Notes under the pieces: generated by a model
Databases searched by the model: none
What the model was told of the DNA's origin: nothing
The model's input: only the letters and a program-made list of their open reading frames with translations
Shown: one piece after another, positions 785 to 3,228 of the stretch
How the letters are laid out: each line of letters opens with the position of its first letter
How positions within the stretch are numbered: the stretch's first letter is position 1
Program-made: the position numbers and the translations under genes
Origin: a virus
Virus record (IMG/VR): IMGVR_UViG_3300034980_000178
Coordinates: 1-29,286 of that record
DNA length: 29,286 nt
Strand: one strand, 5' to 3'

Positions 785-1060
785 TTAGACTGTTTTCCAG
801 TCTCCGTTCCATGCCTCACCATTTAAGAACCATTGAAAGTTCTTTTGATGAACACTTACACCCCTAAGACCGTTTAAACGTTCTTTAGTTGTGTTGGATG
901 ACCAGCCACCATTCGAGACCTCAAGATCTCCAGAATCATTAAACCTTGCTATCATGTTTCCATGTAGAAACAAGGCGTTCCCATCTGTATGGCTATTTGA
1001 CATAGTCATTTTTCGTCTATTTTCAAAAGCATTACAAATGCTTTCTGTTATAGCTCGCAT
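785..1060 (-). CDS. Short phage-family protein (MRAITES... type), function unknown
   Basis: The 91-aa product begins MRAITESICNAF and carries the core LHGNMIARF, then NGGWSSNTTKERLNGL, then a C-terminal FQWFLNGEAWNGDW. I recognise this pattern from a short conserved protein common in tailed phages, whose members start with a similar MRTIT segment and whose function I do not know. The ATG at 1060 is chosen over the in-frame ATGs at 1069 and 1153: it matches the usual N terminus of the family, and both TATA box (C at 1090, -30) and RTCTA box (1100, -40) are in the standard register. It is a single leaderless early gene followed by a T8 tract. Its presence links this archaeal-type virus to bacterial phages. 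Confidence 0.85.
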   Translation of the reverse strand: MRAITESICNAFENRRKMTMSNSHTDGNALFLHGNMIARFNDSGDLEVSNGGWSSNTTKERLNGLRGVSVHQKNFQWFLNGEAWNGDWKTV

Positions 1061-1527: not shown

Positions 1528-1536
1528 AAAAAAAAA
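1528..1536 (-). terminator. T9 terminator of the ncRNA candidate
   Basis: Nine A on the plus strand give T9 on the minus strand, 8 bases beyond the closing stem of the predicted RNA, preceded by CCCCTTC. Confidence 0.65.
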
Positions 1537-1630
1537 GAAGGGGAATAGAGAGATTTTTCCTTCGTAGCCATTATACTTGACCGTCATCAAGTTGATTTCT
1601 ATCGTGGCTATTACTCTAATTTCTCTATAA
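1537..1630 (-). ncRNA. Structured small RNA candidate with early promoter
   Basis: A full early promoter (1652-1671) lies here but no ORF follows: the only ATG (1645) reads six codons to a stop. Using the -40 register of the coding genes, transcription should begin near 1630. From there the sequence folds into one long hairpin: closing stem 1545-1555/1618-1628 (11 positions, one mismatch), middle stem 1565-1570/1605-1610 (6 perfect pairs) and apical stem 1575-1580/1587-1592 (6 perfect pairs) with a 6-base loop. The closing stem begins within 2-3 bases of the predicted +1, and a T9 tract follows. The single non-canonical position is A-C in a minus-strand RNA but G-U in a plus-strand RNA, which slightly weakens the strand call. 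No known RNA family is recognised. A viral regulatory or decoy RNA is possible. Confidence 0.6.
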
Positions 1631-1651
1631 TGATTTAACTAACATGATATG

Positions 1652-1671
1652 ATATATAAATCTAACTAGAT
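1652..1671 (-). promoter_or_regulatory. Early promoter of the ncRNA candidate
   Basis: On the minus strand ATCTAGTTAGA is followed by TTTATATATC. It is the same arrangement as the protein-gene promoters, but no start codon lies 40 bases after the box. Confidence 0.7.
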
Positions 1672-1678
1672 GTAACAG

Positions 1679-1693
1679 GGGTATATAAAGGTT
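1679..1693 (-). repeat. GGGTATATWAAGG element, copy 11
   Basis: The copy GGGTATATAAAGGTT lies 13 bases beyond the A-run 1707-1714 of the metalloprotease gene and about 30 bases above the TATA box of the ncRNA promoter. Confidence 0.75.
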
Positions 1694-1717: not shown

Positions 1718-2311
1718 TTAGACTAAGTCGTGTAATCTATTGTAGGCTTTCATGTATCGTACTAATGTTGCTTTTGATTTGTCATCATGTTCGCAGGTGT
1801 GTTCTGCATATTTGTACTCTGTTAAGATAGAGTGTATCTCATTACAGAATAACTCGTTATTCCATTTACGGATTTTTCTCTTAGAGTAGTCATCGATAAA
1901 ATATTTGTCTGTTAATACTTCATCGTTGAACTTTTGTAGCTTCTCACTGTTTTGACGTGTTAGCTTATAGTACAAAAAGTGAGCCATCTCATGAAGTACA
2001 ACTGATTTTAAACTCTTGTCGCTGTCTATCATATAGAAGTTCAATTGTAATAAACCTCTATGGTCGCCCATTCTATTTCTTTTGTGTACTGCTCTACCAG
2101 CCCAGTTAACATCTTCATATCTATAAGCCCTTATCCATTTGATATATTGTGCTGATATCATCTCTGATAGGTGCTCAGGTGCATCATAAAAAAAGTCTAA
2201 TGCTAGCTTGGCTCTTCGGCTTGGTTCAGTTCTGTCAAAATGACTGATATGATAGCCATTAATCATCATTGAACCTCTGCCGTTTGTTTCTGTGTATTGG
2301 ATATCTCCCAT
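1718..2311 (-). CDS. Zincin-type metalloprotease, 197 aa
   Basis: The protein carries the zincin signature HEMAH (H107, E108, H111) within VVLHEMAHFLYYKL. The two histidines would bind zinc and the glutamate would activate water; a downstream helix NELFCNEIHSIL (about 152-163) offers E153 or E158 as a third ligand, as in gluzincins. The N-terminal 100 residues are basic and Tyr/Arg-rich and resemble no family I know. There is no signal peptide, so it should act inside the host cell. The ATG at 2311 has the RTCTA-type box (GTCTATC) at -40 and CTTAAATATC at -29. It is transcribed alone and ends at a T8 tract. Plausible roles are cleavage of a host factor or a viral precursor; the fold could also be SprT-like. 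Protease activity is inferred from the motif only. Confidence 0.8.
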   Translation of the reverse strand: MGDIQYTETNGRGSMMINGYHISHFDRTEPSRRAKLALDFFYDAPEHLSEMISAQYIKWIRAYRYEDVNWAGRAVHKRNRMGDHRGLLQLNFYMIDSDKSLKSVVLHEMAHFLYYKLTRQNSEKLQKFNDEVLTDKYFIDDYSKRKIRKWNNELFCNEIHSILTEYKYAEHTCEHDDKSKATLVRYMKAYNRLHDLV

Positions 2312-2397: not shown

Positions 2398-2412
2398 GGG
2401 TATATTAAGGTT
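2398..2412 (-). repeat. GGGTATATWAAGG element, copy 12
   Basis: The rightmost clear copy (GGGTATATTAAGGTT), 16 bases beyond the short A-run 2429-2434 of the 124-aa gene. No further near-perfect copy was seen in the rest of the window. Confidence 0.7.
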
Positions 2413-2879: not shown

Positions 2880-2899
2880 GTCTATCAACCTTTATATAT
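2880..2899 (+). promoter_or_regulatory. Early promoter of the 97-aa membrane protein gene
   Basis: GTCTATCAAC at 2880 is followed by CTTTATATATG from 2890. The predicted +1 is about 2920, giving this gene a leader of about 15 bases, unlike its leaderless neighbours. Confidence 0.7.
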
Positions 2900-2934
2900 G
2901 ACCCAAAACATTTCCACAGTGTTGAGATTCTAGA

Positions 2935-3228
2935 ATGTACGTTCTAGGTGCACATGGAGAATATTACAAAATGAAAAAAAACACATATACAAAAGGGGAA
3001 AAAATTGATACAGATTCTAGGAAAAAATCGCTACTAGAGACACTCATAGATATAATAATAGGGTTCTTACTGTTCCTACCAGTAAACTTCTTTGTACTAC
3101 CGTTATTCGTGGATCAGATAGCAAGCCAAGATATTCTGGGGGTACTGTCTATATCAGCAATATACATGTGCATAGCACTAGTAAGAAAGTATACATTAAG
3201 GCGTATTTTTGAAAGTTTTAGGAGGTAG
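2935..3228 (+). CDS. DUF7220-like small membrane protein, 97 aa
   Basis: After a polar Lys-rich N terminus the sequence runs KKSLLETLIDIIIGFLLF, a first membrane segment with FFVLPLF (about 36-59), a short loop, a second membrane segment (about 67-83) and the basic end RKYTLRRIFESF. This order (S-ETL-N/D-I-IG..., FPLF-like, then R-Y-LRR-F) matches what I recall of the phage family DUF7220, two-helix membrane proteins of unknown role that are common in phages of many bacteria. The ATG at 2935 is the first possible start in frame, since a TGA lies at 2923-2925. It should sit in the host membrane. The end overlaps the convergent 54-aa gene by 11 bases. Confidence 0.8.
   Translation: MYVLGAHGEYYKMKKNTYTKGEKIDTDSRKKSLLETLIDIIIGFLLFLPVNFFVLPLFVDQIASQDILGVLSISAIYMCIALVRKYTLRRIFESFRR

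Follow-up and report, generated by a model that had tools for sequence, protein, structure and literature searches.

The window, meaning the whole stretch of DNA analysed here, is the complete IMG/VR record IMGVR_UViG_3300034980_000178 of 29,286 bases, which is classed as linear and, given that class, is possibly a genome fragment rather than a full genome. It carries the gene set of a tailed virus, with the portal, the major capsid protein and further genes running rightward on the plus strand, and its portal is distantly related to those of haloviruses such as HCTV-5. Portal-protein relatives are encoded by 112 stretches, 80 loci were fetched, and the relatives searched amount to about 0.96 Mb. 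AmoC is present in four of 21 relatives, a Thaumarchaeota MAG encodes a distant portal homologue (37% identity), and thaumarchaeal amoC occurs in marine Thaumarchaeota viruses according to a published study (PMC8115048, citing Ahlgren et al. 2019). Together these observations suggest that the host is probably a marine ammonia-oxidising archaeon.

The left 2.5 kb of the window consists of small genes in a row, mostly on the minus strand. They include a SprT-like metalloprotease-like protein (1718-2311, minus strand), which has 55% identity to its counterpart in the relative L007, and a small protein (785-1060, minus strand) of the Kyano_Gp96/phrog_554 family, which is otherwise named from cyanophages and is present in this archaeal virus group. 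Most left-end genes follow one cassette order, with an RTCTAG element, a TATA box, a leaderless ATG 20-22 nt further on, the ORF and a run of T6-T9. The spacing of 20-22 nt between TATA box and leaderless ATG recurs in dozens of cassettes, in the window and in relatives alike; it typifies archaeal TATA promoters whose mRNAs are leaderless, and it sets where any such cassette is expected to start. Among the window's minus-strand cassettes of the RTCTAG/TATA kind, only the one at 1631-1528 is without an ORF. Its features, and those of a motif beside it, are as follows.

1679-1693, minus strand: dispersed motif AACCTTTATATACCC, which reads GGGTATATAAAGGTT on the plus strand and lies upstream of the promoter; the leftmost 2.4 kb of the window has 8 copies
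1651-1671, minus strand: core promoter ATCTAGTTAGATTTATATATC, an RTCTAG element and TATA box with motif and spacing shared by other cassettes in the window and by those in relatives
1528-1631, minus strand: predicted non-coding RNA of about 95 nt plus U-run, 5' end at A1631, from structure prediction and the lack of a leaderless ORF
1545-1628, minus strand: predicted closing stem P1, 7 pairs, a mismatch and 3 pairs, 5' arm AUAGAGA-A-AUU (1628-1618), 3' arm AAU-C-UCUCUAU (1555-1545)
1565-1610, minus strand: predicted stem P2, 6 pairs, UAGCCA (1610-1605) with UGGCUA (1570-1565), pair probability 0.85-0.99
1575-1592, minus strand: predicted stem P3, 7 pairs with loop GACG, ACUUGAU (1592-1586) with GUCAAGU (1581-1575), pair probability 0.81-1.0
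1528-1536, minus strand: T9 terminator of the archaeal U-run type; neighbouring cassettes end in T6-T9 soon after the stop codon
63-77, 97-111, 406-420, 747-761, 1166-1180, 1501-1515, 1679-1693 and 2398-2412, plus strand: copies of GGGTATATWAAGGTT

The eight plus-strand copies of the 15-bp motif GGGTATATWAAGGTT all have one orientation and are found beside most of the cassette boundaries within the leftmost 2.4 kb, and relatives such as L020 and L023 have similar arrays, each with its own version of the motif. The motif could be an additional promoter element, or a dispersed operator comparable to the mycobacteriophage L5 stoperators. A different element occupies the junction of minus- and plus-strand genes (2895-2965, plus strand), where a linear arrangement CAAAACAWTTCCACAGTGTTGAGA-N11-TACGTTCTAGGTGCACATGGAGAA is conserved in 13 aligned sequences, is kept even where portal identity is about 70%, and has its first half between the TATA box and the expected start. 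It was considered as a structured RNA and rejected; the 13 aligned sequences are devoid of two-sided covarying pairs, and for this reason it is more likely a DNA element (an origin or regulator site) than an RNA.

Applying the start spacing of neighbouring cassettes to the promoter at 1671-1651 places +1 at A1631. An earlier note on this DNA had described an RTCTA/TATA promoter followed by no ORF, a T9 end and an RNA of about 95-100 nt, and each of these points was borne out: the promoter lies on the minus strand at 1671-1651 and is of the same type as those before neighbouring genes, no usable or leaderless ORF lies between A1631 and the T9 at 1536-1528, and the predicted RNA measures 95 nt without the U run. 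Promoter, structure and terminator also agree in register as it had stated, with the first pair 3 nt past +1 and the closing stem stopping 8 nt short of T9. The promoter can be read as early in type, as it had proposed, and early expression would follow from the gene neighbourhood.

The cassette would be coding after all if translation of a very short peptide began internally or at a non-standard codon, such as the TTG at 1590 (MMTVKYNGYEGKISLFPF...). One frame is indeed open through the insert and also contains the top two genome matches of the RNA, both at chance level. Whereas dozens of neighbouring and related cassettes have their start codon at +1, this frame has none there; from the TTG it stays open across T9 and the next promoter as far as a stop at 1441, and it has no match in Pfam, phages or the relatives. 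The sole other frame near the insert has 23 codons and overlies the promoter. A peptide product is thus highly improbable.

Transcription from the opposite strand would need the GGGTATATAAAGGTT copy at 1501 to be a rightward promoter, the RNA then beginning with a 9-pair hairpin (GAAGGGGAA/UUUUCCUUC). The motif does include a TATA box in plus orientation, and the hairpin lies near the RNA start expected from the 1501 motif, in a fold with a z of -1.65. Against this, the motif adjoins most cassette boundaries and would by the same logic produce antisense RNA in many cassettes, the plus strand of the insert has no T-run terminator, and the demonstrable gene spacing belongs to the minus-strand promoter. 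A plus-strand transcript is accordingly very unlikely.

The three stems that the earlier note had drawn are predicted with high pairing probability (up to 0.91 in P1), but their sizes are 7+3, 6 and 7 pairs and not 11, 6 and 6. The minimum free energy of the RNA has a z of -1.6 against dinucleotide shuffles without the T9 and -0.9 with it, and values of -1.6 or lower were also reached by 10 of 46 control cassettes, which are protein-coding cassettes of the same viruses, folded from their start over equal length. Ten pairs closing the two ends were found in 5% of shuffles and in none of the 46 controls, while end-closing pairs and energy jointly were matched by 0.45% of shuffles (P 0.0045, for a statistic picked post hoc with the structure already seen). 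The folding energy of the window RNA is ordinary, and the closing stem alone stands out.

The closest relative of the window is L007, with 94% portal identity. Thirty bp of the window promoter are identical to L007 1614-1585 and reach precisely to the first two bases, AT, of an ATG in L007, where the ORF under this promoter is 78 aa long and resembles a zinc ribbon. Beyond these 30 bp the insert and L007 have nothing detectable in common, and an exact search for the shared promoter stretch matched only L007 and an unrelated contig (L131). That the same promoter runs into an ORF in L007 indicates that the promoter region is real and that the transcribed part has been exchanged.

This comparison also raises the possibility that the cassette is decayed or emptied, its coding part (as in L007) having been lost or swapped to leave a promoter, unconstrained filler and a terminator, with any transcript inert. 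The homologous promoter with an ORF in L007, the ordinary fold energy, an insert conserved nowhere searched and the turnover of cassettes among relatives all agree with such a remnant. Tblastn of all six frames nevertheless detected in the insert no remnant of the gene that L007 has, or of genes from other relatives, and a perfectly placed promoter and T9 have been retained around an unusual end-closing stem.

Homologues of the 104-nt RNA were absent from about 0.96 Mb of relatives by blastn, nhmmer and a covariance model that combined the sequence of the window RNA with its predicted fold; recurrence of the stems in related viruses, the lack of which the earlier note would count against the RNA, was not found there. 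No homologue was found in phage or plasmid records either, and blastn against 300 archaeal genomes of the phylum gave short weak matches only, the two best of which fall within open coding frames. A host-derived RNA was rejected on the same basis, as the RNAs of the window, L016 and L015 all gave only short weak matches to the 300 genomes. The window has no Rfam match (release 15, gathering threshold), consistent with the earlier description of the RNA as undescribed, and no tRNA or tmRNA according to ARAGORN. Ten relatives likewise have no Rfam match at the gathering threshold; permissive searches returned weak matches far under the gathering scores for L015 and L016, and nothing convincing for a stretch of L054.

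Archaeal box C/D and H/ACA guide RNAs are small, structured and similar in size to the window RNA. By inspection, 1631-1528 has a C-box-like UUGAUGA but no CUGA D box, and its internal loop is too asymmetric for a guide pocket; as far as inspected, it belongs to neither kind of guide. An RNA antisense to the virus itself was discarded, as the longest exactly complementary match elsewhere in the window is 11 nt, the same as for shuffles.

Cassettes without an ORF are also present in the relatives L015, L016 and L020 (IMG/VR 3300045738_000899, 3300006310_000770 and 3300002242_000019).

L015:2194-2410, minus strand: L015 -2445 cassette, 217 nt plus T9, with hairpins, no ORF and the same promoter layout
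L015:1-195, minus strand: L015 -233 cassette, more than 195 nt, running off the contig end, no ORF, same promoter layout
L016:112-259, minus strand: L016 -297 cassette, 148 nt plus T9, no ORF, same promoter layout
L020 +1595, plus strand: 148-nt cassette with a T8-9 end and a 9-pair closing stem (AAGUAAUAG/CUAUUACUU) joining its ends

An RTCTAG/CTAG-TATA promoter, a start about 21 nt on, no ORF and a T8-9 end occur together in window -1669, L015 -2445, L016 -297 and L020 +1595. The cassettes of L015, L016 and L020 share with the window their promoter layout, start spacing, lack of an ORF and location in an early-type region, but they are longer (148-217 nt) than the window RNA. In L020, as in the window, a stem joins both ends, and in L015 -233, L016 and L015 -2445 the predicted start or the adjoining base begins a stem. 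The window RNA has no detectable sequence similarity to the other ORF-less cassettes (P 0.036-0.77).

Alignment shows L015 -233 to be homologous to L016 (P 0/200), variable stretches lying between the conserved blocks ACATGTRGAGCACAACA, GGGACRCACGAA and TAGGYGATCTGTGCAGAC. Their 22 pairs include three two-sided and three one-sided pair-preserving changes, a count that comes from two sequences only. A model of this pair (R1) had no further members in about 0.96 Mb, only L015 and L016 scoring above noise, and it missed the window RNA. This conserved non-coding RNA is a stronger RNA candidate than the window's own, and because the two cassettes are conserved they are clearly not empty, which speaks against decay of the window cassette. 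The corresponding position in L021 has nothing equivalent to the L020 +1595 cassette, and such cassettes are therefore gained and lost.

Several other stretches were noted in the relatives. L015:585-829 (plus strand) and L054:2635-2965 (minus strand) are further non-coding stretches with hairpins in early-type regions, and at L015 plus 545 a promoter is present with no T-run ahead of the next promoter. Fourteen further viral-contig stretches matching the L015/L016 3'-end pattern were read as chance, as the flanks shown look conserved and protein-coding and there is no Rfam match, and a YACGAA motif near the 3' ends of RNA cassettes was set aside as too short to count.

The reading that best accommodates these observations is that the cassette is an early accessory gene with an RNA and not a protein as its product, in a tailed archaeal virus whose hosts are probably marine ammonia-oxidising archaea, and on balance we consider this moderately probable. 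The small structured RNA proposed by the earlier note is in this sense partly upheld, with promoter, +1 and terminator in agreement, no ORF and no Rfam match, but its stems are not statistically exceptional and do not recur in the related viruses searched. An RNA gene likely exists at this locus because relatives carry ORF-less cassettes with the same promoters, two of them homologous and with a few compensatory changes. As the window RNA is without conservation or an outstanding fold, decay or emptying of the cassette is still a rival to be taken seriously, although an unlikely one.

If the cassette is an RNA gene, TBP and TFB would recognise the RTCTAG/TATA promoter, and RNA polymerase would start at A1631 and stop in the U-run, producing an RNA of about 100 nt. 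On folding, its ends would be tied together by P1, with P2 and P3 presented inside. Such an RNA may act in trans on the host, where it would bind some host protein or RNA and serve as an accessory factor directed against the host or its defences; the regulatory or decoy role that the earlier note had suggested is likewise conjectural. The small early genes around the cassette change quickly, and even L007 has no counterpart of it. A host-directed factor is preferred to a regulator of viral mRNA because of the exchangeable early-type neighbours, the fast turnover and the lack of complementarity to the virus, and given a real RNA we put this mode forward tentatively, as somewhat less than an even prospect.

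The literature searched, which included few subscription papers, yielded no description of free-standing structured RNA genes in viruses that infect ammonia-oxidising archaea. In the MetSV transcriptome work, only coding genes are annotated for the virus (PMC9694453). The study of HFTV1, a haloarchaeal tailed virus, reports antisense RNAs with a proposed role in gene timing (PMC12542753). The HFTV1 RNAs resemble the window RNA in being non-coding and from an archaeal tailed virus, but they are antisense to viral genes, whereas the window RNA is intergenic, has its own promoter and shows no more than 11 nt of exact complementarity to its own virus. Structured RNA genes with their own promoters were not met in the portions consulted of either transcriptome study.

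More broadly, tailed viruses of marine ammonia-oxidising archaea might hold a pool of exchangeable early RNA genes of 95 to about 220 nt, placed in promoter-terminator cassettes of the type used for small early proteins, with each virus having its own fast-evolving set; these would be RNA counterparts of small anti-host or anti-defence proteins, a speculative but not far-fetched proposal. Host takeover in ammonia-oxidising archaea is largely unknown, and these archaea matter for the nitrogen cycle. Early RNA cassettes are directly checkable in existing marine metatranscriptomes, and if they are general in this virus group, they would offer a new place to seek anti-host and counter-defence factors.
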